From: Beroe forskalii
Taxonomy: Eukaryota; Ctenophora; Nuda; Beroida; Beroidae
DNA length: 64,000 nt
NCBI GenBank assembly: GCA_011033025.1
Contig: WFMF01000105.1
Span: 248,001-312,000, forward strand
Direction: 5' to 3'
Shown: positions 15,552 to 63,847 of the stretch, piece after piece
Layout: every line of letters begins with the position of its first letter
How positions within the stretch are numbered: the stretch's first letter is position 1
Notes under the pieces: generated by a model
What the model saw: the letters and a program-made list of their open reading frames with translations, nothing else
Databases searched by the model: none
Told to the model about the DNA's origin: nothing
Position numbers and translations under genes: made by a program

Positions 15552-18500
15552 ATTCTTGACGCGACCAACACGACCCGAGAACGGAGGCAACTCATCCTGG
15601 ATACCTTTGCCCCGGAGAATATTGAGGTTCTGTTCATTGAGAGCGTGCTGAACGATGAGGACATCGAGGAGAAAAACATCAGGGTGAGTTTAAATGTTTT
15701 GTAGGCCAAACTTTTAGCACAAAACTTTAGCACAAAAAGCCGAAAATTAAGAATTTCTTAATTTTCGGCTTTTTGTGCTAAAGACAGCCTTTTTTGACAT
15801 TTAAATCGCCGTAAGTAATAACGCCTGTTCTGCAGGAGAAAAAGATCAGATGTCCCGACTACCAGGACTGTGATCCGGAAACAGCCTTTGCCGACTTCTC
15901 GGAACGAATCAGGAACTACAAGAAAGCATACGAGACGCTGTGTCTCAGCCTGGATAGAGAGCTGTCTTTCATCAGGGTGTCGAATGTAACCCAGTTCCAC
16001 ATCAACAACCTTACGAGTATGTCATGACTGGTTGGAGAAACACAGCGGTTTTATAAATGAGATCTTAAACCTACCCGACTCATCAAAAATTAATTTGATA
16101 TTTTACTGAAAATTTTCTATTGGGCATACAATTTAGTTCGTTAATGTTTTTGCTTTTTTGTTACCCTGGTGCCTGGGGAATTTCAGGTTTTATAAAATTG
16201 CATCGTTTTCGTTATTAAAATAAAACCCTCACACCGTTGTCAGGTAACGTGCAGTCGAAGTCAGCGTATTTCATCATGAACACACGACCCTTCACCAAGA
16301 CAACCATGTATTTCACCCGCCATGGGGAGAGTCTGTATAACGAACTCGGGAGAATTGGAGGTTTGTAACCTTACAACACTAGGTACTTTATACAATCACA
16401 ACAATACTTTGTAACAGGTGAGAATGAGAATTTGTTTAACGGATAATTCTTAGAACTTCCGGGGCTATTTTTGGCCCTGATTTTGCACTTCCAATTCACA
16501 GTTCCTTTTACACTGAACCCTTGAATTAATAAATTCCGACCTATATCTTTGGCCCTAAGGCGGCATTCTAATTCAGGAGAAACGAAATTTTCAGATAGTT
16601 TCACTAATTCACTGCGTTTCGGATGGGAGTAGAGTTACGCCCTATTTTTGGCCCTATTTTTGGCCCTATCTTTGGCCCTATCTTTGGCCCTATCTTAGGC
16701 CCTATCTTTGGCCATATTTTTGGCCCTAATTCAGCACCCTAATCCAGGAGACACGGAGTTGTCAGATAACGGTGTGGAGTACGGGAAGCAGATATCTCAG
16801 TACCTGGAGTCCTGTGGACTGGCTGACATTCCGGTGTGGACTAGTCTCATGAAACGTACCATACAAACCTGCTCCTACCTGCCCAACCAAGACGTCCGCA
16901 GGTATACAGTCGACGGACGTAGCTCATCTATTTCTTCTGACTGGATGGCTTACAAATGTTACCGTCAAAATGTGGAACGTTGCGCGCGCGGGGTTGGGTA
17001 GCATCCTACGAGAACTGCCCTCTTTTTGGGGTGGCGCCGTTTCACGTCCTCCTTTATACCCCCCAACCCTCGTTTTGCTCGTCTATTTTTCTGACTGGAT
17101 GGCCCAACAAAATGTGCCGTCCAAATCAAACGAAGCGCGCGCGGGGTCGAAAGCATATCCTAAGAATAAAATGTAATGATATTTATTTTTTATGGATCTG
17201 AAATTTAGCTCCATCAGCCAGTAATTGGCATTTTGCCCCAACCGCGCGCGAAGAGGGGGGCCATACTAGTCGTCTCACAATGCGTTTCGTATCGTAGGTA
17301 CAAGTGTCTGAACGAGCTGGACGCAGGGCGGTGTGACGGGCTGACGTACGAGGAAATAGCAGAGCGTTATCCCGAGGAGTTCGCTCTGAGAGATCTCGAC
17401 AAGTACAACTACAGGTATTTAACAGGGGCGTGTAGAACTCATGACAGGCAGTGAGCCGCGCACGATTATTACGCCGCGCATGGAAAAGCCGCGCACATAT
17501 GAGTTCGACACCCCACAAAATAAAGTACAAAGGTCAAAGTTGCAGTGATTCGATCGACTCATGTATTTGGGCTTTTTTGAAATCTGTTGCTATTTCACTC
17601 TTGAGTCTTGTCTTGCGTTGTCGTATTATTTCGCCTTTTTGGAACGCAATGAAAAATTTTTCTTGGGGCCTTGATAAATCAAGTCGCTTTTGGTCGATTA
17701 TATTTGAACCTTTTTCGTTATATCAGGTACCCCCGAGGAGAGTCGTACCACGATCTCTGTTGTAGACTGGAACCTATTATCATGGAGCTAGACAAACAGA
17801 AACAGGTAGCAACCTTACGAAATAAATTTACATGGAACAATAATTCCGGGGTAAATAAATAAATAAATAAATAAATAATGCCCTTATTTTTGTCCCTCCC
17901 TCTGTAAACCTTCCACCACTCCCCAATTAAACATGTTGGAATGATCTGTCACCAGTGACAGTTGACACCACCAGGTGCATCATCGGAGTTTAAAATACCT
18001 CAACGTTCCAGCTGATGAGATACCTTATATTAGGATACCCCTCCACACCATCCTCAAAGTCACGCCCACCGCGTGAGTATACATTAGGATACTCCCTGAT
18101 TTTAAATTTGTCATCCCCTCCCAAATTTAAAACCTCCCACCTTCGTGTTGTATACATCAGGATACCCCATCATCATTACTCAAAACGTTCCAGCCCACCC
18201 CTACATCAGGATATCCATACTAATCTGCGGGGATGTATATCGTTGAATCCTCAAAGTCACACCCACCGCGAAGCTGCAGGTTTTTAAAAATACTGGGGAC
18301 GTAGCCAGGTTTTGGAAAGGGGTCGGCGATTAACATTAAAAACCTGTTGCCTGTGTCGCCTTCCCCCTGGCTACGCCCCTGGTCACTACACTACACGCTA
18401 TTTCACCTGGAGGAATATCCCCAAATCCTCAACTCAATAGTGATTATAATGTGCAACGTTCCTGGGGTTATATACTTATATCCGGGAAAACGTCCTCCCA

Positions 18501-19362
18501 CGGCTCGGGCGTTGGTACCCTAAGTACTGTTAGTTTACATACAAGTTTTAGAAAGCTGTTAATAATATTTACAATTACAAAGCAGACGCCATATTATTTG
18601 CTCAATTTCAGCTGCTCAGTGCTCAGACTAACTTGGTTGATCATTGCTCCGAATTTCATCTAACCAGATGCTTTCGCCGAAACGGCTCCAAATCGAAACT
18701 GCTAACATTTCATCCTACTCAGATACGCAAGTTTGGGAAGCAACAATCACTAATTTATCAACTGTTTCAGGAGAGCAACTTACAGATACCATACAATTGA
18801 CGCGTTCCCTGCAAAACGCTGGTGTTATAATGTTCTTACACATCTAAGAAATTGAGAAATGTTTTTGACATTTGCGAGTCGCGCGCCACCGTATACGTAC
18901 GTAATCATTCTGTCGTTAAACCAACATATCACGCGCGTATAAATGTCGCGCGAGTGGAAATATCACAATCATTCTAACCTGAGGAAAAAAATATGGCATT
19001 TTGTAAATTTGGGAGGTGTTTCAGGTCGATGGTCATTAAAAAGCCAAATTTAACTTTCACTGTTTTTGGTCCACAGTTACGGTTGTGAAAAGGAAGATGT
19101 GGTCTTTGGGGTTTCCGGTTGCGTAACTCACCGCGATAAACCGACCACTGAGACCATAGAACAGAGACTAATGGACGCCACCTTCGGAGGTGGTGGGGTG
19201 AAGTCTGATGGGTCAGGAGTTGGACCTGTGCCAGGTGAATCCAATGGCAGTTCAGCAAATGGATCCAGTACTGCAGCGCACGATGGATCCCATAATGGGC
19301 ACACGTACAATGGTTTCAACGGCACGACTACGCCTGTGGAACCTGTTGCTACTACAACATGA
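15552..19362 (+). CDS. 6-phosphofructo-2-kinase/fructose-2,6-bisphosphatase, 5'-incomplete and possibly damaged
   Basis: The bifunctional enzyme makes and removes fructose-2,6-bisphosphate, the activator of glycolytic phosphofructokinase. Exons seen: 15552-15683 ([10 protein letters not shown], end of the kinase core), 15836-16016, 16244-16360 (phosphatase RHGES histidine), 16748-16901 (MKRTIQT), 17298-17414 (NELDAG catalytic Glu; YPEEFALRD), 17727-17805 (YPRGESY), a problem exon at about 17933-18072, and 19077-19362 (AYGC, C-terminal Gly/Ser/Asn/Thr-rich tail, TGA). Phases agree except at the problem exon. There, GMICHQ (second catalytic His) and [19 protein letters not shown] are out of frame with each other, separated by 19 extra bases containing a stop, and no AG acceptor precedes GMICHQ. 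Exons for the Walker-A part of the kinase were not found upstream. It is either a decaying or truncated gene, or one with assembly errors. Confidence 0.8.
15725..15783. repeat. 59-bp near-perfect palindrome in a PFKFB intron
   Basis: Two exact 29-base arms (CTTTAGCACAAAAAGCCGAA and nine more bases) around a single central T. It would form a hairpin in RNA or a cruciform in DNA. It lies between the exons ending at 15,683 and starting at 15,836. Confidence 0.9.
16560..16747 (+). repeat. Degenerate copy of an exon start, then 12-14-bp repeats, upstream of PFKFB exon at 16748
   Basis: At about 16,565-16,600 the intron reads CTAATTCAG|GAGAAACGAA and on through TTTTCAGATAG, a diverged copy of the real junction CTAATCCAG|GAGACACGGA and TTGTCAGATAA 171 bp downstream. 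The space between is filled from about 16,648 with eight or so TTTTTGGCCCTA-type units. So both the 3' splice site and the exon start are duplicated. Confidence 0.75.
18073..18290 (+). repeat. Degenerate tandem copies of the preceding PFKFB exon end
   Basis: The exon segment running from AACGTTCCAG through TTAGGATACCC to CCTCAAAGTCACGCCCACCG (17,998-18,072) recurs in pieces downstream. GTATACATTAGGATACTCC is at about 18,076, GTATACATCAGGATACCCC and ACGTTCCAGCCCACCC at about 18,150-18,200, and CCTCAAAGTCACACCCACCG at about 18,250. The copies surround and include the 5' splice site region. Confidence 0.75.
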
Positions 19363-20713
19363 ACTTGTTCGTTGAACAGTCCTTGCTCAACTTTTAGTAA
19401 TAATTGTTAAGGCAAAACTCGCGCTTGATAGTAGGACTCAGGAGTTTCAAAGTCATCAAGAATCAAGATTCGGACCAATGGCGTCTTCTCAGCTGCCCTG
19501 CTTTCGGAAAATGAATAGTTAGATGGGACGATAATTGTAGGGATAAAATATATTATAGGGAATTTATTTAAATAGTTTAATTAATGAACAATGAACATTA
19601 CAGAGATTTTATCTCAATTGTTGAATGGCAAATTCAAATAATGAAAGAATCGCAATTAGACTGGAGAACATTGATGAGGCTATTTTGTGTTGTATTTTTA
19701 TCAAAAGATGACTGGAGTCTGGTGTGATGATGAAGTAGAAACAGTTGGAAGACAAGATCAAATTCTATAATATTGTTTTAGGTGTAACTGAATGTTTGTA
19801 TCGTAAAATTGTTAGATAATTTAAATATTCCAATTAAAATTAACTCTATTTCACATTCAATTAAGATTAGATTGTTTTTAATAATTTGTAATTTTATCAT
19901 ATCAAAAAGGAGATATCTCCAAATCAGTCAGATAGTTTGATAAACCGAAATATCGTTAATTTAGGAAAGTAAAGATTAAATGATGAATGTTGTTAATTCT
20001 TTAATTTTTGGAAATCATAAATCTCAATAAAATGGTGGACAGTAAATATGTTTGTAAATAATTATATTATTAGCATTATACTATTAGCATTAGATTTAGA
20101 TAGTTCATGATTTTAAATTATTTTAGCTAAATCACAATTTTAGATGCCGAAATCCAAATTAACTATTGGATTTAAGGTGTAGTGATAGATGTATTTAAGG
20201 TTTGTAACGAATATTTCAGTTAATTTAGATAAGTTTAACCGCCGTTAATTTCGTGAACTATGATAAACTTGATAAGCCCCTGTCTTTATCCTCCACCCTT
20301 TGCTGCATTTGAACCCCTTCAGCAGTTGCTGAGTGCTGACAATTTTCTAAAAAAATTTAGGCATCGAGAAATATTTTCAAAAAATTGAAACAACTTGGTA
20401 TGAATGCGAAAAATTAATGATCAAACATAAAATTATCAATATTGAAAATCAGCAAAATTATGAAGGGGTGAAACATAAATTTACAAACAGTTATTCATCA
20501 TGAAATGCAACAGATAAATCCAGAAATATGTGAGTCTTGAATAGTGTTCAAGCACTGTTTAACTTCAAACTGTCCGTATCATTGTCAATTTTAAGGGTCC
20601 ACGGTCCTCGGATCCCAGAGTCAGCCAAAATAAGTCCTTTTCTCCACATACCGTTTAACTTCAAGGTCTAAGTGTCCTTAATCGTCATCATGAAAGTTCA
20701 CCATTAGGTTAAC
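19363..20713. other. Non-coding stretch between PFKFB and the peptidase gene
   Basis: AT-rich, convergent 3' flanks of the plus-strand PFKFB and minus-strand peptidase genes. An AATAAA at about 20,027 could serve PFKFB polyadenylation. No other feature is recognised. Confidence 0.6.
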
Positions 20714-22557
20714 TTAAGACGCCATGACACATGTCGGCATCCCGCTCCACTGTCCATCTCCTCCGCAAACTGCCGGTCCCCCGGATACCGTATACCCGTC
20801 CATACACTCTACCGTTGCCGTGGTACCGCTCACAATCTCCTTGGTATCGCTCCCGTCTCCAGGACTACTGAAGGTCACGTGATAGGCGTTCTCCACCGCT
20901 CGTTGAGAGATCCTCGGGCATTCCTCTTTCCGGTATCGGCTGCATACGAACCTGCGGGGAACGGACATTTTAAATTCATCTCACGACACTTTATCTCACG
21001 ACACTTCATAATCATCTCACGACACTTCGACTTTATCTCACGACATTTCATCTCACGACACTTATGTCACGAAACTTAATCTCACGACACATATGTCACG
21101 AAACTTCATCTCACATTTCGCCTCAAGTCAAATCTCACGACACTTTGGATTAGGAAAGGAAATGTCTCACGAACCGGTACTCCTCGTAGGGTGCAGCGTC
21201 CAGCCACCGGCCCCTCTGGTGGTTCTTGTTCTCTCCGGGGTGCACCTTGTTCATCACTCCGTACCTTTTAGGGAGCAAATTAAAAACGTTAAATGATACG
21301 ATAAAGATTAAAATCAGGAGCTTTCGAAAATCATGTGATTATCGTCGTCAGCTGAAAATGGAAGGTGAAAGTGAGTTTAGAAATGATATAAGAGGTGTCA
21401 GGGAGTGGGAGATGGGGTGTGAGTGAGCAGGTGACGGGCTAATCAAATACAAATTATCCGTACCTCTTCTTCCGCTCCCCGGACTTGAAGTTCAGGTACG
21501 GGGCGTCCTCCCCGGAGATGTCCTTGTTAGCAACGTCCGCATCGCCGTCCACCCACACCCATCGCTCGTCCGCCTCCTGCTTCTTGTCGAAGAGTCCGAT
21601 CCAGAAGACGTTGAAACTCGTGTCCTTCTTCTTGTCCGTTCCGAACTTGGCGGTGAAGAGATCGTAGACTTCGAAGTTGTGCATCTTCGTGGGGATATGT
21701 GCCAAATCCCAGCCATCTCCCAGGGCTTGACACGATTTCCTTGCGTTTTGGAAGGACTTTTTACCCGCCCCAATCTGGTACTCGATCTCCCTTCTCTTGC
21801 CCAGCAGGAGCTGGTACGCTTGGAGGGCGTACCTGCACCACTCGTTGAGTTCGGTGTCGGCGTACTTAACGTACCCGTCCTCCCCCCAACTGGTTCCGTA
21901 GCTGTTACGGACTATGTAGTAGGGCTTGCCGTTGTTTGACTGCCACCCGACGAAGGTCAGGGCATGCGGACTGGGGTTACGGACGCATCCCTTCCTCCCG
22001 TCGTCCGTCAAGATCCCACTCTTGTCCCAGCCAGCAAACTTCACTCCAATGTTCATGCCGTGGAATGTTGGGCCGTTTTGCAGTGCTTCTTTCACTGCTG
22101 CTGGCGTCGAGGCAATTCGTCTATAACCGTGAACCCAGACATCAGCCAGGGCGTTCCGCAGGGTTCTATCCCGGGCCCCCACACGATCACATCTGTTGTA
22201 GTCGAAGTTGCCCTGGTACTGGTAGTCCTCGTCGTACGGCAGATACTGCTCGGCCATGATCCGCTGCACCTCGCTGTTCAGAACTCCGCTCTGACACCCG
22301 TCTTCTGGCTCCCCCGTGCTCAGGTCCAGGCCACAATCCACCATGTACTGCGTGGATACCGGTGTTTTGACACCGGTTTCCGTGGCAAGTTGCCAGTCCA
22401 GGGCTCCGGCTATGGCGAACCCGACACAACTCCCACAACCGCCCTGATTGGCGATCGGTGACATGTTTTCGTCCCTCCAATCAACGTCCTCTATTCCTTG
22501 TGACACTGGAATCACCAGTAAGAGTAGCTGTAGGACCATCTTGATCTTGAGAATCAT
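20714..22557 (-). CDS. Secreted papain-family (C1A) peptidase with C-type lectin-like and sushi domains
   Basis: Three exons: 21464-22557, 21175-21264 and 20714-20951, with phases that agree, giving about 475 residues. Order: signal peptide (about 1-21), C1A peptidase (about 22-250), a C-type lectin-like domain (about 255-395), then a complement-control (sushi) module ending CVMAS. Catalytic residues are visible: Gln38 and Cys44 in NQGGCGSC, His198 in SPHALTF, Asn218 in RNSYGTSWG. There is no I29 or other propeptide between signal peptide and mature domain, which is unusual because C1A enzymes are normally made as zymogens. Val replaces the usual Trp after the catalytic Cys. Location should be extracellular or vesicular. 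The lectin and sushi modules suggest targeting to glycans or surfaces, as in innate defence or secretion-gland proteins; that role is inference. Confidence 0.87.
20975..21140 (-). repeat. ~16-bp tandem repeat filling an intron of the peptidase gene
   Basis: Read on the gene strand, about ten units like AGTGTCGTGAGATGAA or AGTTTCGTGACATA fill the 3' part of the intron between exons 2 and 3. The true 5' splice region of this intron reads GGTTCGTGAGACATT, so the repeat unit looks derived from the intron's own donor segment. Confidence 0.8.
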
Positions 22558-27122: not shown

Positions 27123-30100
27123 TCAACTGTTAGAGGGCTTGGTGGAGTAGTAGAGTCGCCAGAACTCCTTGGATATGTCGTCCACAATGGATCTAAGGGT
27201 GGAATCATCGTTAATGCCGAGCTATCAATTAATTGGCAATCGTCCAACACCTGTGTAAATTGTATATCTGTAAACACAGACAGACAACACGCAGAAAACA
27301 GACTGACACACACACACTGACACTGTAGACACACAAACACATTACCATTACCTGTCAGGGATTTGAGCCGCCATTCCGTACATGGCGGCGGACCCGGTGG
27401 CTTTGCTCTGCGGCTGAAGCAGCTGCTTGGCGGCGCTCTCCGCAATGTCCGCCAGAAGCTGGTCAATGACCCCGGGGGCCATGTGCCGGCGGGTCAGGGC
27501 GATGTGAATACCTGGGGGGAGCGCTATAGTTGGAATTGTTCAGGGCGATGTGAATACCTAAGGGGGAGGGGGGGGGGGAGCGATATGATTGGATTTTGTA
27601 ATAGTTCAGGACGATTTGAAAACCTTCATTCTATGCACACTAGTGCGAGTTTTCCACGTGGGTTACACGTGACTGCTGCACGTGGGTAACATGTGACTTT
27701 TGACTACAACACGTGGTACTGGTTTAGGTTACACCAGTAAAAACCGAGTATACCTGCCGGGAACTGGAGAACAGCCAAGTTCCAGCCCTTGGCCGTGAGA
27801 TCACTCGACATGTTGTAGATGTTGAAGCGTTCACTGGTCCACCCCACGCAGGACACCACAGGATCCCCCATCACCTCCACCCCTTCTATCTTCTGGAGAC
27901 CAGCTATGAAGTACCGCGCTCCACGGATCACTTCCCGAGTGGCACTAACGTAGCCTGAAAGAGATAGAGAGTTGAACTAAAATTGAGGAGGAGTTGGAAA
28001 GGGACAAGTTCTGAAACTGCCGAAAATTTCTGGAGTGTTCTGGTAGAACGATTATTTGTTCATTTGTTTTATTATCCTGGGTAAGTTTCAAGGATCTCAG
28101 TGCCCACAGTGTACCCTGCTGCTTCCCTGCTAAAACAGCCAAACAGAATTGATAGTCGAGTATCAATTGAATTAAAATGGTTTAATTTCAAAATAGATAA
28201 CAGCAATCAAGTTCCAAAATTCATACTGACATATGTATTCCGTATCATGATAAAGAAAATTAAAAAATGATATAATGTGAAAAATATGCACAATCAATAA
28301 TTTCTAGAGCTATTCCAGTATTCAACTCGTAAAATGTAAGAAGTAGGAAACCAACTCTGCTAATGTATTAATGTTAATGTTAACTTCATGATTATTCAAA
28401 GATTTTTAAAGCTGTTTAATCGTAAATGTATCATGATACCTTGTTTTCAAATTATCAAACACAATTTAACAGCAAGTTTCTCAGGACCAACGGAGTTCTA
28501 TAGACACAAGAAATCAAGGATTTTTAAAGATTTCAAACCAGTAAAGCACACTAAAAATAAGCCAGTTTAGGAAGACTTCAGTCTTTAAACTTTAGTTTCA
28601 GATCTCTATTGTCCGGCAGTTGACAGCGTTCTCCCCGGACCCCGCTGTTGTGGGTGTTGTTTTCTTCTCTCGTGTGGACGTTGTTTTCTTCTCTCGTGTG
28701 GTCTTTATCTTCTTCTCTGCTGTAGAAGTGGTCTTGTCTCCCCTCACACCATATATCCTTGCCTCTCCTCCTCCTCCTCTTATCCCACAGATTGCTCCCC
28801 TAAATAAGTGCAGCTTTTTGCCTCAGGAACTCCCTGAAGCTGCGCACCGTCAGACTGTATACATAAAAGTTAGCCATTACGTTGATGTTAATGATGGTAA
28901 AGGCTGCTCTAAAGAATTGAACGTAGAGCATTGGGTCCTGGATGAACTGCTCAAATACTTGGACCAGCCCTGTTGGCAGCACAGACAGACAGTACACCAC
29001 AGCTGTTGCAATGACTGTCATCAGGCCTTGCCATTTTATCTTTTCACCCACTCGATTCGTTGCTCTCAAGGCAATCACTATGAGCCATGTAGTGGTCACT
29101 AAGACAACAATGTTTGGTACCACTATTACTGAACCGCCAAAAAACGGTCGCCAGATTGTCCAAGCTTCCGCTGAAAAGCGATACATGCAGGAGTACCATA
29201 TGTAATTAAATTCCACGTCATCTTTATCTATGAAAAGGCAGAGAATTGGCAATGTTAGGGAATAAATCCAGATGATTCCGCAGGCGATATGAGCTTTGGA
29301 TTTTGTCCAGAGATGAGCATGCATCGGGTACTGGACTATGAGGAGCTTGATGCTGGTTAAGGCAGCTGTAAAGTAGAAGCAAGCCGCGTAGGAAAAGTAG
29401 GGTAAATAACCACTGACACTGCACAAGAAGGACCCCAGATTATTCCGTTCTGAGATCAGAGTAGCTAGATAGAGAACAACACTGAATGAGTTGAGAAGAT
29501 CACATACTGCCATGTGCTGCATGATGGTGACAATGGCTTTGTGAAGCTTGAAGGCATCGTATTTTATGGATGCCACTAGGATGATTGAATCCCCCAGGAA
29601 GGAGGAGAGGATAACAAAGAGATAGAAGGAGATCCAGCAGTAGCGGGCAGCCTGGTTGTGGATGCCAAACTCAGTGTAGTTGGTGAAGGAGACGTTCATT
29701 AGGTCTGAGGTTTTCAGATGTATCCAGGGGTAGTGCTAGAAGATACTAAAACGAGATATAAGAGGCCAATCCAAGCCAATGGATGGTGCTGCGATTAGTA
29801 ATGAGAAAGAAAAAACTAATTCAGGATATCTGATTGTAAACTGAACTATGTCTAATAAACTTTGCTATGATAGATCACGTGTTTGCTATCAATTTACAGT
29901 TCCTACATCCTATTTTCCTGGTAGTGGTACGTCGTTTTGGTTATGAGTTTTGGTTTTGATCTGACGTTACAATAATTTCGCTAAGTAGCACTGACCAGGA
30001 AATTCAATTCTGGGAAAAAGGTACAAAGAAGCCAACGTCGGTTGCCTCAGTATCGTAAATTAATAAAATAGCCTCAGAAAGTGGAAAGAATAAGAGAATA

Positions 30101-33100
30101 AGCAGCCATATTCTATAACTGGCTACAGCGTGAGCAAACTGTTATTCATCTTTGTAATTACTTCACCTTTTCTTTCTGAGAAATCGGTAGGTCTCCCATG
30201 TAAACGGATCCGGGCTCTGAGTGACGTCACAGATCTTTACGTCAATCTTTTTGTATCCTAACCATAAACCCAATCCTAACCAGAACCCAAACCTTTATCC
30301 TTACCCTAAACCTCAAAAATCCTGACCCTGATCCTGACCCTAACCCTAAGACTCGCGTTTATATTGGGAGACTGACTGAGAAATCAAGATCGGGGAGGGA
30401 CATTTAGCGCCTGCATACAGGAACAACAGACAACAACAGTCAATACCACACTATTCAGTGACATTATATTCCTTATTATATTGGGCCACTCTTCAAACCA
30501 CTCCATAATAATATTAATAATTTATTCACTCGCTTAGCCTCGGCATCTGTGCTGACGCTTGAGTCCGGCGACCATCTTAGAAGCAGAAGTGGAAGAAACA
30601 AAAAGGACACTAGCCGTCTTTTCCGAAGCTCATCATGGCAGCCCAAGTCACGGCAATGTTGGCCCCAGGACGGCTGCCTGCTATGGTTGGGGAGGCGTAG
30701 ATACCACCTGGCCACTCAGTAGCCGTCGTGATTTGTTGGTAGAACATCTCTTCAGTCCTGAAAAGACGAGATTATCTAATGGACGAAATACTGGAATACT
30801 GGAATATTGCAACGAAGAGAATAAATTCATTATATATTCGAAAACCAGTAATTTCTGTGCGTCAGAACTCAGAAGTAAATAGGTATACCTATTTACTTCC
30901 CTAAAAGTCGAGGAATTATCCCACCCCTCTCACCACCATCACCACCCTCATCACTATCACCACTCTCACCAGCCTCACCACTCTAACCACTATCCACCCC
31001 TCACCCCTCTCACCACTAGACTATATCCACCCCTCATCACTATATCCACCCCTACCCACCTGTACAGTGTACACCCCTCACCCCTCTCACCACTAGACTA
31101 TATCCACCCCTCATCACTATATCCACCCCTACCCACCTGTACAGTGTACACCACTCACCCCTCTCTCCTCATCACTATATCCACCCCTACCCACCTGTAC
31201 AGTGTACACCACTCACCCCTCACTCCTCACCACTATATCCACCCCTCACCCCTCTCACCACTAGACTATATCCACCCCTCTCACCTCTACACCCCTCTCA
31301 CCTCCTCACCCCTCATCATTATATCCACCCCTCACCCCTCTCACCTGTACACTACAACAGAGGAGCCCTTGTAGGTGTACCCGTACTTGTGGGTATCTAC
31401 TGATATCGCTGTCACTGCAGGGAGCCGGAAGTCGAAGGGAGGCAGGGGGAACCCGGCTTCCTCCATGAAGGGCACGAGGAAACCACCGAGACACGCGTCC
31501 ACGTGAAGTCCAACGTCATACCTGGGGAGGAGTCGTGATGTAATTGTAACGCATATGTGGTGTGTGCAGACCGCTCGATTACAGGAAACTTGAATTTGAG
31601 TACAAAATCTATTTCGAACAGAAAATATCATGTGCTATCCGTCGTTATATCACGTGAGTTCACACGTTATCCCTCACGCTTTACCCCCCTACGCCCAACA
31701 TCCCATCCAATAGTTCTCTGCCTCACCCTTCACCCTTCGCCCCCCTCACCCTTTACCCCCCTAACGCCCAACATCCCATCCAATAGTTCTCTGCCTCACC
31801 CTTCACCCTTCGCCCCCCTCACCCTTTACCCCCCTAACGCCCAACATCCCATCCAATAGTTCTCTGCCTCACCCCACCCTTCGACCCCTCACCCTTTTAC
31901 CCCCTAACGCCCAACATCCCATCCAATAGTTCTCTGCCTCACCCTTCACCCCAACCCCCTCACCCCACCCCCTAACGCCCAACATCCCACCCCCCACTTC
32001 TCTGCCTCACCCTTCACCCTTCGCCCCCCTCACCCTTTACCCCCTAACGCCCAACATTCCACTCTCCACTTCTCTGCCTCACCTGGAAGCTATCTCATTA
32101 AGAGCCTCGAGGTCGTCAATGATGCCGTGAGGGTACTGGGGGACGGAGCCCACGATGCAGATCGTGTTAGCGTCGATAGCGTTGGCGATGTCGCGGGGGT
32201 TGACGGAAAACGTGTCCGGATCCACCTAAGGAAGGAAGTTGGTTGAGTTGGTCAGGACTCAGTGTATGGGAGTCCTTTCCGAAACAGACTTATGTCAAAA
32301 ACGGACTCAAGTCAAACTTGTAGTGTAAATTTGCAATTAACTTTTTAAATCGGTTTTTTTAAAATTAAGTCTGTTTCGGAAAGGACCCCCAGGTTTCTAC
32401 GCTTTGAAGAGAACAAAGAGATTTAAAAGTATGAAACTATGAAAGGCCACAATGAGTGGGAAAGCATGAAAGGATGGTTGACCTTTTGATGAAAAGTATG
32501 TTATATTTATTGCACGTTTGCATATTGCCTGTTTTTCATAGCCAATCTGCCATTACTCCTTACCTATTAGGTACCTAGTTACCAACTCCGTGAAAAATTC
32601 AGTGAAACAGTCAAACTTAAAAGAAATATTGAATATGGAGCTCACTAATACATACATACTGAAATATTAATCATGGCTCGATGATATTATTAGGAAATCT
32701 GAATAAAATTCAAAGAAATGATGATTCATTTCCCAATCAGAGATCTGTAATAGGTCCAATTATATAATTGTTTGTACCACACGCTAATATTCAAGTATGT
32801 TGTGAAAGCTTAATAAGTTTTACAGATTCTGGCATGTCTGGGTAGAGCATTAGAACGGGTGTCCTTTGATGCACCACTATTCAAATACCCGTCACAACTC
32901 AGGAACTCCCTCGACAGGTTACCACGAGCAGGCCTGTTCACGGCGCTCGGACCACAGAACAACGCCCTGACCCAACACCGCACAAACTTCCTGAAACTGT
33001 TAATGGAGGCAAAGTAAACAAAGAAATTAGCCCAGTTGCTGATAGTGATACTCATGTTCCCCAAACTACACAGAGTCGTGTAGAGCACCCCTGAGAGCGG

Positions 33101-36100
33101 TACCCCATCTGCCCCCAACTCCACAAAGACCACTTCCCCAGTCTCTAAAGTCAGGAACTTCTTCTCCCTCACAAAGCTGGAGTCCCCTAGGTAAGCTGAG
33201 TAGTAGAGTGCGTGGGGCAGGAAGGAGACAGTGTAGAGCACCCCGATCAGGATCACTGTCACGATCCCCTGCCATTGTCGAGCCCATTGTCGGGTGGAGA
33301 CCGCCGGGCGTCGGATGTGTTGTTTCCGAGCTATCACCACCAAGCAACCGGTGGTTACCATGACAACGCACGTGGGTAGGATTATCACCAGGGTGAGACA
33401 GAGCGGCGCCAGCCACCGCCACACTGGCGCTGTGTAGGCGTACATCGTCACCATCACCCGGTAATCGAAGTAGAAGTCGTCGGGGTTAACGAGGAACTGA
33501 CAGGCTGGCCACACGGCGGATATCACCCAGAACCCTGAGACAGCAGCGTGACATTGGGCAGTGGTGGAGGGGCCCCAGACCTTGCCTAGAGGGTCGGAGA
33601 CACTGATCAACTTAGCAACATTGAGTCCGCAGACCAGGACAGAGCCACTCAGCGCAAAGAGCACCCCCAGATACACCCTAACGTAGGCCAAACCCTCGCC
33701 CAGCACCCACTTTCCAGCAATATACGACACGAAACCAGGGATGTAGGAGAACACAACGTTCCCAATGTCACACACAGCGATGTGCTGGATGAAAGCCACC
33801 GTTATTTTGTCAAGTTTTATGGCATGGTGCTTGGTGGTGGCCAGGAGGATGATGGAGTTGCCTGCGAGAGCGACAATGATGTACAGGATGCTGTAGGTAT
33901 AGACTGTAGCGATTTGGGGGGCAGTGTGAGCGAAGAGCAGAGTTTTGTTGTTAGATGCAATCATTCTGAGCTGCGAGAGATGACGGTATCATAGATAATC
34001 CATATGTGTGAAGATGCATAGATCGATCAAGGGACTGATTAGGACGTGCATTGTTCAGTGCGCACAATTTACTTTTCACAGAATTTCAGTGAAAAGTGCA
34101 GTATTTTAAGGCGTTTTCATAGATCGATCCATGTGCACACATATAGATAACAAATATCAATAGTGGATTGATCACACCAAATCCGTTGATTAAAACTCAA
34201 GAACTTAGAAGCTGCTTCTTATTTCGTCGCAAACTATATCTAGGAAAATTGATCTAATATTTTCCCCATGAAAGGTACTACAAGAGACAATTGCAGATCA
34301 GTAAACCAAAAGATATAAAAGATTCCCGAAACACAAAACTCTTATGCAAACGATGTCCCCAGGAGTAATTCGTAAAATAAATGCACCGGTGACATAATTT
34401 CGGGAATGAATATTGTGGTAACCATACTTATGTATAGGATGATCAGAAAGCTTATTACGTTTCGAGGTACAAGAAATCCCTTTTTTCACTTTTCATGATG
34501 TAACAAGATCCTGAAAATCTTAAGGCGTTTACTTAGCTACTATATGTCTGTTTTCATAACTTATCGGCTTAAAATACTATGCATTATAAAGATTGGGGAA
34601 TATAGAATTTAAACAATGAATTTGAGATTCCATGCAATTTCTTGTAGCTATCCAAATCAAGAAGTGCCACATCTGAAGTGACATGATGCAAGCCCTTTTA
34701 TCCTTTTATGCACCACATTTCGATGCAATAGATTAAGCAGACAAGTTGCAAACACCGAAACGCAAGATGTGGATTGTGGAAATAATAGAAACACGATTGT
34801 GGAAATAAAAAAGTTGAAACACAAATGGAAACAGGAAGGAAAAGGAAAAAGGAAATGCAAAAAATGGAGTCACACATTGGAATGACTATGACATGATAAA
34901 AATGTCAAACGTGATGTAAAGTTTCTTTACGTAACAAATGAGATTTACGTACGAAATGAATGAGAATATGAGAAGTACGTACATAACTGAAAGTAAATTT
35001 ACTTACATAACTGAAAGTAAATTTACGTGCATAACTGAAAGTAAATTTACGTACCTTGACATGTATGACTCTGATTTTGAAGTAAGCCCCCGCCTTGTCG
35101 AAGGCAGGATGGGCCGTGATGGGACACACGATGTTCGGCTTCTCGATGCCCTTAAACTCTCTAGCGTAGTCCCGGTGCGCTTTCATCGACATCAGAATAG
35201 ACTCAGTTCCTGAGGCATAGACGTAACTGATTACAACTCACGTATCAGTTATATCGTTTAAACTTCAAATCAAGAAGTTAGTTCAGATTATTATTTGAAA
35301 TTAACATTGTTTTCTTGAGGCGGAAAGGGAGCAAGGTAATGAGATTCGCTGTCTAACTTACTTCGAAGAGCTTTCGAGATATACTTACCGCCACTGGTGA
35401 CACTGCCGCAGGGTGAACCAGGATGGTTGAACATTTGGCCGATCATCGCCACACACTCAGCCTCCATTTTCCGGACATCTTTAAAGCAGTCCACGTGAAG
35501 TGGGTTAGTCCAGCAGAACTTCTTGTAAACCTGGGAAGGAATGTTCAAATTCATTAACCACACGAACTAACAACCTCTTTTAGTTGTTACTCATTAACCA
35601 CACACCAACTAACAACCCACTCAAAGTAACCACCCAGTACCCCCACCCCCTACCTAACACCCCTCACCCACCTCTCCCAGTAGATCGTTTTTGTCCTCCT
35701 CAGCGCAGTAGACAGTCCCCGAGCACCTCCCCTCCTGCCACACCACATCGTTCAGGGCGTTGTTCTTGTCTATCTGACTCCAGAGGTCGGTGTCAGATAG
35801 CCCGGCATCAGGAAGACACGTCTGGTAGGTGTGTCCTGGAGGGAGGAGATGTTGCGATCATCAAGATGGCATTGACTAATGAAAATCTATTGTAATTAAG
35901 CGCAAAACAACGAAATCATGTGGCACCCTGCTGTAGATAAATCAAATTTAACAACTTTCCGATAAAATCGAAAGAATTAATATATTACTGTTTTCTTTGT
36001 AAAACGTACCTTCTGGTAGGACCCAGGGACCATCGTTGGCCATGTCAGCTTTAGTTTTATCAACCTTTTCTTTGATGATAGCCCCCACTATGGGCGCTCG

Positions 36101-43140: not shown

Positions 43141-43601
43141 AATTCAATTCAACTATAAATTTTACAACTCAGCAGACAATATATACTTCTTCTCAATCTG
43201 GCATTATGAAAGACACCTCTCATGTTGTGCTGAGGGAGAAGCCCATGCCATTACACACTTTTTCGAGCTAGTTGGGGTCAAGGCCCCCTTAGAATTTTCT
43301 TGGGGGCCTTTGGAAGCTGAGGGGGGGGGGGCTAAATTTTCATTACCGAATTTTGCATAAAAATACAACTGTTTTCTGTTTGCTTTGATTCCGAAAAGAT
43401 TTCAACAAAACTTCAGTTTTAAACTTTACAACTTTCAACAAAACTTCAGTTTTAAACTTCAGTTTTAAACTTTACAACACTACTTTATACAATCAAATTT
43501 GAGGACCCCAAACTGTTGTTTACCTTGCCAATTTCTATCTATGGATGATTGCCACAGACTAGCTTCCATTCACCTAGGCTAGATCTCTTTCTTAACTTCA
43601 A

Positions 43602-50026: not shown

Positions 50027-50251
50027 TCATTGTGAAATTATGACAGGGAAAGGGAAGAGGAAAGGCCAAATTAAATTAACTAACTGAGCAAGGTACATCA
50101 TGCCTTTACTCAAGGGAACATTCAGACCAGCAACAAAAGTTGCACGTTCAAGAACAAATTCTGCCTCAGAGGGAGAGAGATCAAGATCCAATTCTATCTC
50201 GGATTTAGATTCTCCCAAAGTGTTATTAACAGCAGGTATATTTTGAATCAT
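50027..50251 (-). CDS. Short unknown ORF, copy 2 (74 residues)
   Basis: Begins MIQNIPAVNNTLGES, continues through an acidic EIELDLDLSPSEAE stretch to SKGMMYLAQ, and then runs into a hydrophobic tail (LVNLIWPFLFPFPVI). In copy 1 the frame ends after MMYLAK because of a local difference, so the tail is not conserved. The shared 55-residue part suggests a genuine exon or small protein, but I do not recognise a family. Confidence 0.35.
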   Translation of the reverse strand: MIQNIPAVNNTLGESKSEIELDLDLSPSEAEFVLERATFVAGLNVPLSKGMMYLAQLVNLIWPFLFPFPVIISQ

Positions 50252-55981: not shown

Positions 55982-58900
55982 TTCTCAGCGTTTAAAGTCC
56001 CAGCCTCCCCTATTGTGGTTGGTCTCCCCTCGCCCCACAAGCCCCCTCCTTCCTCCCCCACCAGTGGACTGTTCCATGGGTCGCCCCGTAAAACCCCCAC
56101 GACCCCCTTCTCTCCTCCACCTCGCATTCTCTCCCCCCACTACATTGAACCCCCGCCCTTTGGGGAGGAGGTCGAGGATGACGACAGGTGGGTGAGTGGG
56201 TTGTGAAGTGAAATGGTAGGTAGAGAGTAGAGTGCGCTTCCTTCAATCTCTTGAGAATAAAGCGTTTGTAGCGTTTTTGAGTTTTTTGAAAGCATTAAAA
56301 ATGTCATTTTTTTCAAATAGAGTCGTCAAAATCCAGAACCTATCGCTAATCTTCACTTCCTCAGATTTGATCACCTGCCCCAACCGGAACCTGACATTCT
56401 TCCACCGACCGTCAAGCAACCCAACAGCCTCTCTCTGGACCCCATCACGCCTCAAGACAGCATCAGACCCATAGCAAAACCTGATGAATCCCTGGAAACT
56501 AAGTGGAGTGCTGCTGAGTTTGACAGCTCTACGTCTCTTCACCCCGCTAAAACTGAGCCTGACCAACAAGTTACAGAGATTAAAAGAGCTGATGATCAGA
56601 AGTCAAAGGTTACAGAGGAAACTCAGAGTAGTGTCTCGGAGGATGGAGACTTCAGTGATGTCATGTCAGGTTAGAGTCATTCTAGTATGGAGACTTCAGT
56701 TATGTCATGTCAGGTTAGGAGCCATTACAAAGACGGAGCCTTAATGTCAGGTAGGGGTCTCATGTCAGGTAAAGCCAGGTACATAAAAGCCAGGTACCTA
56801 AGAGCCAGTCATGACATGTCAAGTGTCATTTAAGAGTTGTACTTTTCACAGGGACAAAAGTGTGTTTGTTGGCCATTTCCAACCAAATCACATCAGTCAT
56901 TAATCCGTCTGAAAGTAAATCACAGTAGTTACTTGAACCTTAGGCTTCTTTCAGCATACAACTTGAAACCTTCCTTAAAGTAATTTGGGGAATACCTTAG
57001 CCGGTGATATATTCATATTTCATGTTAAAATGATACCCAGTCCACCGGTTCGGTTCTTTTCATATTCCGTTATTAAGGTCGAGTCAACCTACATATCATA
57101 TTATTTGATGTGATTCGTGTATAGTTTAATTTTATATAGCTGCACACCGATGATTATTATTGATAAATAAATTTAATATGCAGTTGGTTACTTTGCTTAA
57201 CATGATGTATTGTCAGTTTCGTCACAGATTTCAAACAGATCAGAAAAAGCAAAAACTCCCACGGTAAGTAATATCATTCAATCTATAACATTTTCTTAAA
57301 AGGAAACTTACCGAATGTATGTATTCTGTACTTTGCCTTCAGTTATCACGACTTAATACAGCCCTAAAACCATGGACTACATCACCAGTCCCACTTCAGA
57401 TAACCAATGTTTCTGATAACAGATAAGCTTATCCTATCTTTAATAATGATAAGCTTATCTGTCAACATAAGCTTATCTATCAACATCAACAGATACTCAG
57501 TCTTGGATGAAGATTAGCTGCCCACTTTTAGTTGCTTTATACCCGGCAAAAATTAAAGCTAAATGGATTGAACTGCTGTTTCCCACACAGGATAATTGAA
57601 TGGCTGTTTTAGAGATTTGTACGACAGCCATTCGCGGGTTCATCGCTATTGCTAGTTTTGGTGTTAAAAAGATAACAAAAGTTGACGCGCACGAAATTAT
57701 TTTACGCGCGATTAGCGAAATTTAGGTGGCCACGCTGTACAATTACTGACGAAAGCAACGATCTTTTCAAAATTCGGTCACAATCGCTATTCATTTTTTT
57801 CACTGTCACTAATGATCAAGAAACACTGCTTTATTTCCATTTAGATAGTTTGGAAAATGCAGGTTGTACTCTGATCGGACAGCAAGATGAATGAGTGAAT
57901 GTAACGTTTTCACGTGTTGGAACATCTCTCAGTCCACGTATCACATGACGTCTAGTTGTGGATGGAATAATCTGTAATAATGAGCACAAACTCATCGGGA
58001 TTCATTTGAATATCAACGATTCAAACTATACAGATATACTTTGAGCTATAAAAGTGGGTCGTTATATCAGTCATTTCGTTGGAAAACATCTATATTAATA
58101 ATTTCAAAGTGTTCGTGCGTCTGTGTATGTATGTATGTATGTATGTGTGTGTAATGCGTTTATAAGAAATGCATTTAGTATTTTTGATCGGTTTTTTCGG
58201 GAAAATCTTCACCCAATTAAGAGGATTATTCTTATCTATGATAAATTCGAATCGGGCTTTCCGTTAATTAATTATTAGCATAATAAATATCATGCGTTTA
58301 CTAATGCTAATATATGCTGTGTGTATATATAGGTGGTCTCAAATTACAAAGTATGTTATGCGGTGCATTTCCGCGAATATCTGTAATCCTCGGTAAGCGG
58401 TAGCATGTTAAAGTGATACCTAGGTGATCAAATCACTTTACACATTCCAAGATGACGTCATGAAGCAAGTTGCTGTTGGCTGCTGGATACAAAACGAACC
58501 GCAGGTTGATTGTTTCCGCGAATCTTCGCGGGCAAACGCTAGTTGAAAATACTAAAATACTCAAACTTTAATCTAGCGAACGTAGCGAGGTGGATAAAAT
58601 GAGTTATTCACCGGGCGAAGCGAGGCGAATTCCTCTTGTGTTCGCAATCTATCCAGTTGCATAACTGCATTATTTCATGATCGAAACGGGTAAATTGACT
58701 AATTTGTAGAAGCCAAAATTTCATATCATCATCGTATCGAGATCAATCCAACGAGTAAGTTCAAAAGCAAGATAATGTATTGAAAATTGAGGTCTAATAG
58801 CACGGATGAAGCAAAGTTCTGAACTTCATCGATTGGGTTGTGAGTATGGAAAACAAAATGAAACACATCAAAATAAAATGCTAAATTGGAGCAATACACC

Positions 58901-60497
58901 TTATTCATGGCGCCACAAATATGTGCTCATGTGCGTATTTCGATCGCCAAAGAACAATAGTTTTTCAACGGCGAGCTATTCAATGATCATGAAATAATAC
59001 CGCTTTAAACAGGTTCCTCTTGTCATTGATAAAGCAAAGATAACGATGGCAGATGTTATTAAGATGAAGCCCTCCAAGAAGGGGAATCCCAATCCTTTGA
59101 CTGAGTAAGATCCTCCAAGTTTTGTTTATTTTTATTGTTATTGATCAGTAAGTGTATCGGTATCTAGTCTGGATCGTGATCGAAAGATCACGGGTTCGAT
59201 TACTTGCCATCCCAATTCTTTGCCTGAGTAAATTCCTCCATGTCTCGTATATTTTTCTATTTCCTTAACTATTCTGTCAAGTTATTGTTACAGATGAGGT
59301 TTAAGGTTTTTACGTCCTTATTTTTCTCACAGCACACTCAATAACCGAATTACTTTCAGAATTTGGCGGGAAATAAAGCGTAAAAAGCAACGAGACGAAC
59401 AGTTCGACCTGGAAAAGGAACAATCACGGAAGGACCGTATCCAGCAACTTATAGAAGAAGCCGAAGCAATGGGGCAAACCCTTGAGGAAAAAGACATCGA
59501 TGAGTCCGAACTTCCTCCGATTGAGGTGGAAGTGAACCCGGAAACAGGTGCAATCTCTCACCTTCCATTTTCAGCTGACGACGATAATCACATGATTAAC
59601 GTTTTAAACTTGCTCCCTAAGAAAAAAGGGTCTTTTGTTCCCATAATACCTCAATGAATTTACATATTTCTGTTATCCAATTAAACATTCATTCTTTTCT
59701 AAATTTTAGGTGCGATTGTGGTTAACGAGAAGAGTCTGGAAGTAAACATGAAAACGGAGACCGACATCCGGGAAACGGTGGAGGAGGACGTTTCCGAGGT
59801 GACCTTTGGAAAGTACGAGGATCACACGGTCAACATTAACTCCTTTTCCCGGCGGAAACCGAAGAAAATAACCACGTGGTCGGCTCTGGAAAACGAACGG
59901 TTTTATCTGGCTCTCCGGAAAGTTGGCACTGACTTCGACCTCATGCACAAGATTATGCCGGAGTACAGTCGTGATCAACTGAAGAGGAAGTTTAAGAGGG
60001 AAGAGAAGATGAGACTGAGTAAGGTTGATCTGGCGCTCAGTTACTCCATGCGGATAGACGATAATGTCATAGAGAAAGTTCCGGAACCTGAACCGAGTAC
60101 AAACGATCGGAAGACAAAGAAAATTAAGAAAGAAGAGGATTGTAAGCCCCTTAAAAAGGCAGGAAAACGAGTGAAAAGGAATTTATCCAGCTGTACAGAT
60201 GCTTCTGATTACACGATACAATCGGACGGCGAAGCCAACGAAAATGTGGACATGTTCAGTAAAGTAGAAAGTGATCCTCCGAAGAGGAAACGTGGCCGGC
60301 CCAAAAAACCTCAGAAAGAGGCCACTACAATCTGTGATGATGGAGATGATGATAATGATGCCTATGTACCGAGAATCAGATCTCCAGGAAAGAGAAGATC
60401 ACGGCCGCTGGTTATTGAGGATGAAGAAGAAAATGATCATGTGGCAATGAGGAACCCCAGTGCAACAATTGATCAGATTTTGGATAATTTTTGTTAG
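55982..60497 (+). CDS. BDP1: Transcription factor TFIIIB component B'' homolog (BDP1)
   Basis: A subunit of TFIIIB that, with BRF1 and TBP, recruits RNA polymerase III to tRNA and 5S genes. Exons seen: 55982-56187 (Pro/Ser-rich), 56365-56669, probably 57228-57263, 59013-59104 (ITMADVIKMKPSKKG), 59360-59547 (a charged helix, EIKRKKQRDEQFDLEKEQ) and 59710-60497. The last opens AIVVNEKSLEV, the counterpart of the human IILDEESLTVEV region, then carries the SANT/Myb domain (WSALENERFYLALRKVGTDF, KFKREEK). The tail has an AT-hook-like KRKRGRPKKP. The first coding exon (start Met) is not identified, and one more small exon is needed between 57,263 and 59,013 to restore phase. The donor at 59,548 is GTGCAATC, and the next exon starts GTGCGATT after AG, so both intron ends share the same word. 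Confidence 0.88.
56642..56800 (+). repeat. Serially duplicated 5' splice site in BDP1
   Basis: The exon ends GATGGAGACTTCAGTGATGT, CATGTCAG|GTTAG at 56,669. A near copy, TATGGAGACTTCAGTTATGT, CATGTCAG|GTTAG, ends 45 bp downstream. Further shorter echoes follow: AATGTCAG|GTAGG, CATGTCAG|GTAAAG, GCCAG|GTACAT and GCCAG|GTACCT. So six donor-like AG|GT sites lie within about 130 bp. Confidence 0.88.
57264..59012 (+). other. Large BDP1 intron region
   Basis: AT-rich with a short GTAT-type microsatellite (about 58,120-58,150) and inverted AAGCTTATC / GATAAGCTT clusters (about 57,422-57,480). At least one unrecognised small coding exon should lie here. A GCGAAGCGAG-type GC-rich scrap is at about 58,560-58,640. 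Confidence 0.4.
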
Positions 60498-61165: not shown

Positions 61166-63847
61166 ATGGCAAACAACAAGTTGAAGACTCATGCCCTCAA
61201 GAAGATCCTACAGAGTCCAGAGGGCATGATTCAGGATGAGGAGCTCTTCAAACATCTCAAAAAGGTTACTTTTTTATAGTGCCTTCAGTGCTGCAAAATT
61301 TGTATGGAATTTTGGATATTTCTGTTTTATCATTAATAAAACCCCTCCCCGGGCCGTTTATGGAATATTTAAACCTTCCCTTGTTTACACTTTGGAAGCA
61401 CTCATTGTCCTCAGCACCGCAAATTTTTATGTACCGCCTCTTGATGTGAGAATCTCGAAGATGTGTCATCAGGTCGTGAACATTTTTGTATCGTAGTTGG
61501 AAGCTGACACTCAATGCCCCCCATATTTCCAGCTAGATCGGTCTGCTGAGTCTCTGGTCCTCAAGAAGTTCGTATCTGCAGTATCCGAGATCCCGCTCAT
61601 TGAATACAACTCCTCATCCAAGATGTTCATTTTCAACAGGTACGCACAACCATATTTCGTACCTTTCACAAGGTTTGAAGAACGCAAGTTGAGTTTTTAT
61701 TCTTGTCCCATGCCCATGCATGTATTGTGGAAAGAAGGAAATGAATTCTGATTATTTAATTTTCGTGATAAATATGATACACAATTATCTCAACTAAATC
61801 TTTTCCTTTAAAACATGTATCATGATTTGAATTAGAAAATTAACTGATTATTTAACTTCCATATGGTAAATTTCACCTGGATTATTAAACTAACCCCTTT
61901 CCAGATCAGCGCACAGAGCAAGGAACTACTTCGTCTTCATGAGTTATCTCTTCGGGATCTCAATAGCAGCAAAGTGGCCGGACTTCAAGAAACTCACAAC
62001 CAAGATAAAGGATGTTAATCAGAGCCACTTCGTAAACTCCTACTGTCTACAGGTGAATACAGAGGCCATGATTGGGGGCTTGTCTATCGTTGATAGATCC
62101 TTCCGAGCATCAGCGGGTCTGGTATTATATCACCAGACAAATTGGGGCCCGCCCTTTGGGCATATTCTTTAGGGGTCTCGCCGATCAGACCCCTGTTTAG
62201 CATTGGCAGGATGCTGGGGCAATAGAAAAACAATCTTTCTCCGAAACTTCAAATTGTAGTTGAATGATGGCTTAATTTGCATCGCACAGAAACAAACTAG
62301 CATAAAGTAAACTATTTAGCTCAAGTTTTCGAGATAAACAAATCATTGTTTCCTGCTGATCACCAATTTATGCTCCCCAGACCTTGATCCAAGAGAAGCT
62401 ATCGGCGTACAACACCCAAATGACGATACTCCTCGACTTTGTTCTGAAGCAAGGAAAGGAGAAGGGAAAGGAGGTGATATTCGAGAAGCTGATCAACGAA
62501 ACCCTGGTTAACTTCTTCCCCACCCTCACAATCAACTGGGTGTGGCTCTTCAACGAGGTGGGAATTGAACAGGAATTATTGGTTTTATTTAAATAGGAAT
62601 TATATTTAAATAGAATTATTTAAATAGGAAGTAAACAGGATTAAAACAAAATATAGTCCAAAGAATCGCTAAATCTTCCATTTTATTGTTTGGAAAATAT
62701 TCATTACTGCATCAAAATCTATCATAGATCATAGAAGATAAGGATAATAGAATCCTGAAATTCACCAACTACATTGCTAAGAAGGTTTAATAAATTACCC
62801 TACATCCCCAGGTGGTGAAGGAACCTCGCCCCAAGAACCTGAGCAACAGCACGCTGACTCTGGAGAAAGCTCAGAGTCAGCTGATAAAGTGTGCTAAGAA
62901 AGCGGCAAAGGAAGCGGAGTTAGAGGTCAGTTAGAGTTTTGAAAGACACTTTGATTTTGTGTTGCAGTGAACACTGAACTTGGATTTTGAAAACTGTCGT
63001 GGTCGTACCCTTTTTTGCAATTATTTCTCGCATCAACCCGTCTCCCCAATAGCTACTCTGCGTTCATTTTCTGACTTCTCATGTTCATTTCCAGGTGCAG
63101 AGATTCAATGTGGACTCCACCCCACTCTCATGATATGTCCATTTCCAGGTTCAGAGACTCAATGTGGACTCTACCCCACTCTCATGATATGTCCATTCTC
63201 AGGTTCAGAGACTCAATGTGGACTCCACCCCACCCTAATGATATGTCCATTCTCAGGTGCAGAGACTCAATGTGGACTCCACCCCACTCTCATGATTTGT
63301 CCATTCTCAGGTGCAGAGACTCAATGTAGACTCAACTCCACCCTCATGATTTGTCCATTCTCAGGTGCAGAGAGTCAATGTGGACTCCACCCCACCCTTA
63401 TGATATGTCCATTTCCAGGTGCAGAGACTCAATGTGGACTCCACCCCACCCTCTGCATCTCACAACTGGGCTGATGTAGCTGCTACCAAAATATCCAGCT
63501 CAGGTATGTGAATCAGGAAATTGTGTCAATCTTTTAGCGATACTTCACTTTAAAACATATCACAACTGAAAGATTAAATGATAACAAAAGGGTACTGCTA
63601 TCACACGGGCTATTGCGCAAACTCCGCCATATTATTTGTATTCACAATACTGAAATTCAACTCTATGATCCACCAGGTGAAGTGAATCCAGATCCTGTTC
63701 AAACTGAAGCAATCCCCCTATCCGCTGACTTGTTTCCCATCATCCAAGGGAAGGATGGGGGTAATCTGAAGTACATCCAAAGTAAAACTGGTAGCAAAGT
63801 CTCCCTGGGAAAGATGAGAAATGGCGAGAGTGGCTTCTTGGTTCAAG
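61166..63847 (+). CDS. Unrecognised gene with a C-terminal KH-like domain, 3'-incomplete
   Basis: Seven consecutive exons with agreeing phases: 61166-61264 (start MANNKLKTHALKKIL), 61534-61639, 61905-62052, 62381-62557, 62812-62925, 63419-63503 and 63677-63847, after which a donor GTAAACC leads toward or past the window edge. The first ~230 residues are helical with a mix of charged and hydrophobic stretches (ARNYFVFMSYLFGISIAAKW, FPTLTINWVWLFNE) and match no family I know. The last exon contains LFPIIQGKDGGNLKYIQ-type sequence, the shape of a KH RNA-binding loop (I-x-G-K-x-G plus following helix). An RNA-binding role is inference. The intron before exon 6 consists largely of seven 54-bp units that each contain this exon's 3' splice site. 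Confidence 0.75.
63091..63430 (+). repeat. 54-bp tandem array, seven units each with a complete 3' splice site
   Basis: Units begin at 63095, 63149, 63203, 63257, 63311, 63365 and 63419, exactly 54 bp apart. Each has a polypyrimidine-like ATGTCCATTCTCAG (or TTTCCAG) acceptor followed by GTGCAGAGACTCAATGTGGA and CTCCACCCCAC. Only the seventh continues into the open exon (PPSASHNWADV). In the exon's frame the earlier units hit TGA shortly after the acceptor. The period is a multiple of three, which is why a 164-residue repetitive frame spans the array in another register; I regard that frame as a by-product. Confidence 0.95.

Follow-up and report, generated by a model that had tools for sequence, protein, structure and literature searches.

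The stretch of DNA considered here, referred to as the window, comprises 64,000 nucleotides (nt) from the ctenophore Beroe forskalii (C55:248001-312000) and contains PFKFB, a C1 peptidase, SGPL1, BDP1 and a KH gene. Genome searches cover an assembly of 216,145,372 bases in 1134 contigs. Its single COX1 match, on contig C1134, agrees at all 411 residues with COX1 of Beroe forskalii when translated with code 4, the next named ctenophores being 65% and 64% identical; at the amino-acid level, one mitochondrial protein does not distinguish sister species. The original prediction for the window was that local tandem repeats in the introns of these genes are anchored on splice junctions, reflecting either the birth of introns by tandem duplication of AGGT-containing segments or a mechanism that preferentially amplifies splice-site DNA. 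Judged by their sequence, two introns, and probably a third, appear to have arisen recently through the insertion of repetitive DNA, not by tandem duplication. The idea of intron birth is right in spirit, but its mechanism is wrong in the clear cases, where the predicted introns appear to be inserted dispersed repeats. The duplications are real, and they are about equally common at junctions and in intron interiors.

Two of the three introns interrupt the C1-peptidase gene. Joined at canonical splice sites, its three exons form one reading frame that no stop interrupts, and Pfam assigns papain, C-type lectin and sushi domains to the joined protein. Specifically, the Lectin_C match (residues 266-399) spans both joins, which fall at residues 365 and 395. 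The two introns and their ends are listed below.

21265..21463, minus strand: peptidase intron 1, read as gained; positions ~12-197 of its 199 are a dispersed-repeat copy
21457..21465, minus strand: left 9-base-pair (bp) direct repeat of intron 1, AGGTACGGA, with exon AG and donor GT
21258..21266, minus strand: right 9-bp direct repeat of intron 1, AGGTACGGA, with acceptor AG and exon GT
20952..21174, minus strand: peptidase intron 2, read as gained; largely minisatellite, with arrays elsewhere in the genome
21169..21177, minus strand: left 9-bp repeat of intron 2, CCGGTTCGT, exon CCG and donor GTTCGT; uninterrupted in paralog C407
20946..20954, minus strand: right copy for intron 2, CAGGTTCGT, with one mismatch, which supplies the acceptor AG

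The end repeats of intron 1 match exactly over 9 bp, with AGGT at both ends. Of 1064 first-look candidates from the genome search, 40 were scored, and these gave 40 matches to this intron; apart from the intron itself, the 39 match at 85-88% over positions ~12-197 of 199. All eight of the copies that were fetched end 3' in TTGCTCYCTAAR, and seven of them share sequence upstream of the point at which the intron copy starts; the eighth (L042) does not. No blastn match at E 1e-6 was found between intron 1 and its own exons. Intron 2 has a 9-bp end repeat with one mismatch and AGGT on the right side only. It gave 127 match rows including itself, on 36 contigs (40 scored of 352 candidates), and the non-self rows fall within positions 29-222.

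The paralogs of the peptidase provide a view of both sites without the introns. Four of the five paralogs (C407, C681, C869 and C427) align uninterrupted through both sites; the fifth, C569, is too diverged for the sites to be placed. AGGT is present at the intron-1 site in all four, and at the intron-2 site C407 reads TACCGGTTCGTGTGC without interruption. If the introns were instead old, the paralogs would have lost them through a processed copy. The joint absence of both introns from four paralogs fits such a loss, as does the continuity at both sites of the database homologs, which are proteins of other ctenophores (8 of 37 hits aligned); however, these continuous proteins say nothing on introns, because a protein record hides gene structure. 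Against it, intron 1 is still 85-88% like other copies of its repeat and its end repeats are intact; an ancient origin of the two introns seems very improbable.

The third intron, in BDP1, is related to the first by sequence.

59548..59709, plus strand: BDP1 intron that contains parts of the peptidase intron-1 element; ends AGGTGCAAT (59546-59554) and AGGTGCGAT (59708-59716)

It holds 43-bp and 25-bp pieces of the element found in peptidase intron 1, and the remainder resembles one genomic copy, C365, down to the final AATTTTAG. The ends agree over 9 bp with one mismatch, and AGGT stands on both sides. The earlier observation that this intron starts GTGCAAT and the next exon GTGCGAT is exact. 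As with peptidase intron 1, the BDP1 intron has no blastn match to its own exons at E 1e-6.

Wider comparisons depend on the gene models. SGPL1 was read manually as having 10 introns, with the frame open across the joins; homologs in the protein database are 68-89% identical over at least 90% of the length (best hits from named species, 49%), and homologs P0001-P0004 run continuous across whichever SGPL1 joins they cover. The first five exons of SGPL1 are also present in a tandem segmental duplication (positions 1-13890 and 33874-51735 of the window, and beyond it as far as C55:244491; main blocks 87-96% identical), along with a 253-amino-acid open reading frame and part of a gene labelled TSP1-like from its sequence. 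This duplication could instead represent two haplotypes joined in the assembly. Intron 8 of SGPL1 has an apparent GC donor at 30614 (GACG/GCTAGT), and the next exon begins GCTACG. In the PFKFB model (15552-19363), the first residue aligns with residue 90 of 1k6m, exons before that point being outside the search. The model matches residues 90-417, and the catalytic-HQ stretch is missing at the 17974/17975 join, so PFKFB may be degenerate or its model incomplete.

The remaining genes were modelled by a self-trained gene finder run over 264 contiguous kb with 12 settings. Depending on the setting, 7-9 of the 10 SGPL1 exons and 4-7 of the 8 PFKFB exons were found, both genes being in the finder's training set. 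The starting sample held 80 introns, 63 of them predicted in at least 6 of the 12 settings and 17 placed by hand. Four introns of the SGPL1 duplicate and five shorter than 100 bp were dropped, leaving 71. A further eight were judged false or doubtful, because they lay antisense to better genes, were coding in a paralog, or belonged to a duplicate TSP1-like fragment. They were picked by eye once first results were known, and their removal gave a final sample of 63; one of the eight is open and coding in a paralog. A second region, C1:50001-110000, yielded one predicted intron and was left out. An Rfam scan gave no match at gathering thresholds.

An intron born when AGGT-containing DNA is duplicated, or through an insertion that duplicates its target site, should begin with the same bases as the next exon. 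Such a match of at least 4 nt is found in 9 of the 63 introns, compared with a mean of 2.5 for permuted partners (P 0.00025), and within the window in 7 of 28 (null 1.7, P 0.00075); these are among several end-match statistics computed, and the choice of window was not independent of the finding. Exon ends compared with intron ends gave no excess (71 introns, P 0.38). The statement that five of ten SGPL1 exons start with GT is exact, and in the wider sample such exons follow 26 of 63 introns, 15 of the 28 inside the window and 11 of the 35 outside it.

These matching ends are also what the Rogers model would produce, in which tandem duplication of AGGT-containing exon segments creates the intron. 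Consistent with it are the AGGT that the paralogs carry where peptidase intron 1 interrupts the gene, and the excess of end repeats over chance. So is SGPL1 intron 1 (36215-36411, minus strand), which has a 14-bp direct repeat at its ends with 1 mismatch, GATTTGGCAGGTAA-like, and a duplicate at C55:246933-247076. The idea that this intron is a dispersed element was rejected, since the genome search matched it to nothing beyond itself and its segmental duplicate. Against the model, peptidase intron 1 and the BDP1 intron match dispersed copies and not their own exons, a test that applies to those two and not to every intron, and the body of peptidase intron 2 is a minisatellite present in other contigs. 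Tandem duplication of AGGT as a route to introns retains the units that span junctions and the end matches beyond chance, but the three best end-repeat introns have dispersed-repeat bodies, and as the source of the matching-end introns it appears quite unlikely.

The element shared by peptidase intron 1 and the BDP1 intron could alternatively represent a genome-wide family of introners, producing introns in large numbers. It is found in two introns within a single 64-kb window, and its 3' end occurs 417 times in the genome (reversed control, 6). However, only 1 of the 417 ends is directly followed by AGGT, namely peptidase intron 1 itself, where 1.4-1.6 would be expected by chance, so there is no family excess at AGGT; the count is an indirect test made without annotation, and its pattern is blind to variants such as the BDP1 copy, which extends beyond that end. 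The 35 introns outside the window likewise show no excess of matching ends. Bulk production by this family is very unlikely, and the preferred reading is one of single insertions, each of which survived because it landed in AGGT.

The ten junctions named in the original prediction were tested by local alignment of each to its own intron, a unit with at least 10 exon bases being counted as spanning. At six of the ten places the unit spans the junction and takes in 10-35 exon bases. Of the other four, one is marginal, two are arrays that only begin at the donor, and one has no junction copy. Both boundary types are hit, at donors 18073, 31344 and 56670 and at acceptors 16747, 27512 and 63418. 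The spanning units are listed first, followed by the two arrays that begin at a donor.

16465..16768, plus strand: region of PFKFB acceptor 16747; diverged acceptor copy 171 nt upstream with 21 exon nt, and a 12-bp array between the copies
18050..18270, plus strand: PFKFB donor 18073; last 23 exon nt copied, the copy beginning 174 nt inside the intron
27494..27568, minus strand: SGPL1 acceptor 27512; upstream copy with 18 exon nt
30922..31352, minus strand: SGPL1 intron-7 minisatellite at donor 31344; CACC-rich, extending 8-10 nt into the exon
56640..56742, plus strand: BDP1 donor 56670 duplication; last 30 exon nt and the donor, copy shifted 44 nt
63081..63453, plus strand: KH acceptor 63418 array; seven 54-bp units, each with the 3' splice site and 35 exon nt
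31671..32083, minus strand: SGPL1 intron-6 73-bp minisatellite; begins at donor 32082, with 1 exon nt
34976..35054, minus strand: SGPL1 intron-5 24-bp array; begins exactly at the donor, with 0 exon nt

The KH array is the cleanest case. Only its last unit (63419) opens into the exon, and the frame from all six upstream acceptor copies hits a stop within 13 codons, making these copies decoys inside an existing intron; it is the sole array whose extra copies were read in frame. In the genome search it matched only itself. At SGPL1 donor 31344 the unit includes 10 exon nt, 7 of them matching. The marginal case is PFKFB acceptor 15551, with a 16-nt copy that includes 5 exon nt and was equalled in 0 of 100 shuffles. 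In the peptidase intron with the array at 20964-21114, the best donor copy is 8 nt (equalled in 45 of 100 shuffles) and the best acceptor copy 7 nt (89 of 100). The SGPL1 intron-5 array has 3 in-register units here and 7 in the segmental duplicate (aligned flanks ~89% identical), a comparison between two segmental copies, not alleles, of an array without exon bases.

Despite this list, the junctions are not favoured over intron interiors. A copy was scored when a junction-centred 24-mer matched its intron at 17 or more of 24 positions, with at least 8 in each half. Such a local copy exists for 6 of 126 junction 24-mers (63 introns) and for 23 of 366 intron-interior 24-mers (Fisher P 0.66). For exon 24-mers, a copy in the neighbouring intron exists in 2 of 126 cases at 2-26 nt from the junction and in 0 of 126 at 36-60 nt. 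The sample does not include BDP1 donor 56670, since its intron has a different form in the gene-finder model. In the pre-curation set of 71 introns, 6 of 142 junctions have a copy, where shuffled introns give 0.3. Any duplication is found in 8 of 28 introns in the window and 4 of 35 outside. When overlap of repeats with junctions is checked on this sample, therefore, the duplications exceed shuffled sequence and are also present outside the window, but they are not concentrated at junctions.

The proposal that splice-site DNA is preferred for tandem amplification draws on several striking arrays in one window, and among the arrays that overlap introns 5 of 13 cross a junction, compared with 3.3 under uniform placement (P 0.21; pre-curation, 6 of 14 compared with 3.9, P 0.16). 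Per-base duplication coverage, however, does not peak at the junction, and since the junction rate is no higher than the interior rate, a splice-site-directed process is not supported; such a preference is highly improbable. The controlled comparison indicates that a striking list of splice-junction repeats need not imply a process directed at splice sites.

Taken together, the window would be best explained, with a probability of about 0.75, by two superimposed processes, ordinary local tandem duplication and intron gain by insertion of dispersed repeats. In the first, local tandem duplication and minisatellite change would act across introns and their edges. A duplication straddling a splice site would be tolerated when the exon-proximal site still yields an open frame; the extra copy would then become intron and decay, and no splice-site-directed machinery would be needed. 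In the second, dispersed repeats would insert in coding sequence at AGGT-like sites. Insertion, as opposed to break repair, would duplicate about 9 bp, so that one copy gives the exon AG and donor GT and the other the acceptor AG and exon GT; in the second peptidase intron, the AG would require a single base change. Splicing would restore the coding sequence.

Several observations weigh against this explanation. In peptidase intron 1, four nucleotides (TAAT) that separate the element from the end repeat are unaccounted for, and the first 28 nt of intron 2 are covered by no match row except its own. The BDP1 intron is without a paralog control, and its AG could derive from the element. The excess of matching ends is absent outside the window (2 of 35 compared with a null of 1.0, P 0.27) and is weak once the three element introns are removed (6 of 60 compared with 2.3, P 0.023). 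The 5 of 13 arrays that cross junctions tilt toward the splice-site-directed idea, though not significantly. Besides those of SGPL1 and PFKFB, intron calls depend on a gene finder whose training set consisted of these two and further genes of the window, and one PFKFB join (17974) is itself doubtful.

The peptidase itself could be a disrupted gene, its introns being spliced only by prediction. No peptidase transcript was found, the best of 37 protein hits being 60% identical. A peptidase copy broken by insertions, with introns that are modelling artefacts, would be consistent with this and with the false introns that the gene finder made elsewhere. The frame kept across three exons, the canonical splice sites, the lack of a stop and the three kinds of domain in the joined protein argue otherwise, and a broken gene is judged unlikely.

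The Beroe boundary duplications resemble the amphioxus 'mirage' minisatellites of Adh3 and globin genes, which are described as straddling exon-intron boundaries and were proposed to be able to make introns (PMC3087553). In both, units span boundaries at 5' and 3' ends and hold AG/GT inside; copy number in amphioxus is variable. The present case differs in coming from a ctenophore, in being known from sequence alone, and in having a junction rate that was measured against the intron interior and is not elevated. For the introns read as gained, the closest account is that a transposon inserted in AGGT duplicates it, providing donor and acceptor while leaving the coding sequence unchanged (PMC3443670). 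The introns described here likewise have dispersed-repeat bodies and end duplications with AGGT. Compared with the cases tabulated there, from Oryza, Drosophila, Oikopleura and Zea, they come from a ctenophore, include two introns in one gene, and have paralogs without them. In a potato RdRp case (PMC4974935), the shared features are an AGGT direct repeat at the intron ends and duplications crossing the intron-exon boundary; unlike that case, the three best introns here have dispersed-repeat bodies and not duplicated exon.

A survey of introners gives two groups among animals and land plants, both animals, and its main text has no words beginning ctenophor or Beroe (PMC9860276). The Beroe introns are like introners in that their bodies would be nonautonomous repeats by mobility class, some introners having target-site duplications, with both splice sites drawn from the insertion site (PMC9860276). 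They are unlike introners in that the peptidase intron-1 element, with AGGT after 1 of 417 ends, shows no sign of bulk intron production. A search of the literature by titles and the starts of abstracts, with supplements and most subscription papers outside its reach, found among the papers listed no report of boundary minisatellites or element-born introns in ctenophores. According to the cited papers, it is rare to catch a recently gained intron whose source can be identified. The peptidase offers two such introns in one gene, with paralogs showing the pre-insertion site, in an early-branching animal phylum. A broader possibility, which is doubtful at present, is that Beroe forskalii is now gaining introns from several unrelated dispersed repeats landing in AGGT, that a sizeable share of short introns followed by GT-starting exons are decayed insertions, and that boundary duplications reshape their ends. 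If so, ctenophores would be a further animal group with ongoing intron birth, from many small families and not one introner.

Other features of the window include two single-exon putative seven-helix receptor genes (28800-29735 and 32810-33988, minus strand; label read by eye), which lie within introns 8 and 5 of SGPL1 and share its strand. Nested intronic genes have been described in the ctenophore Hormiphora (PMC8527503). A non-LTR-like retroelement at 43596-49102, with two long open frames of 692 and 1039 amino acids (label from sequence), is present in one of the two segmental copies only. The start of the window (1-2674) is occupied by a large array of ~160-bp units in both orientations.

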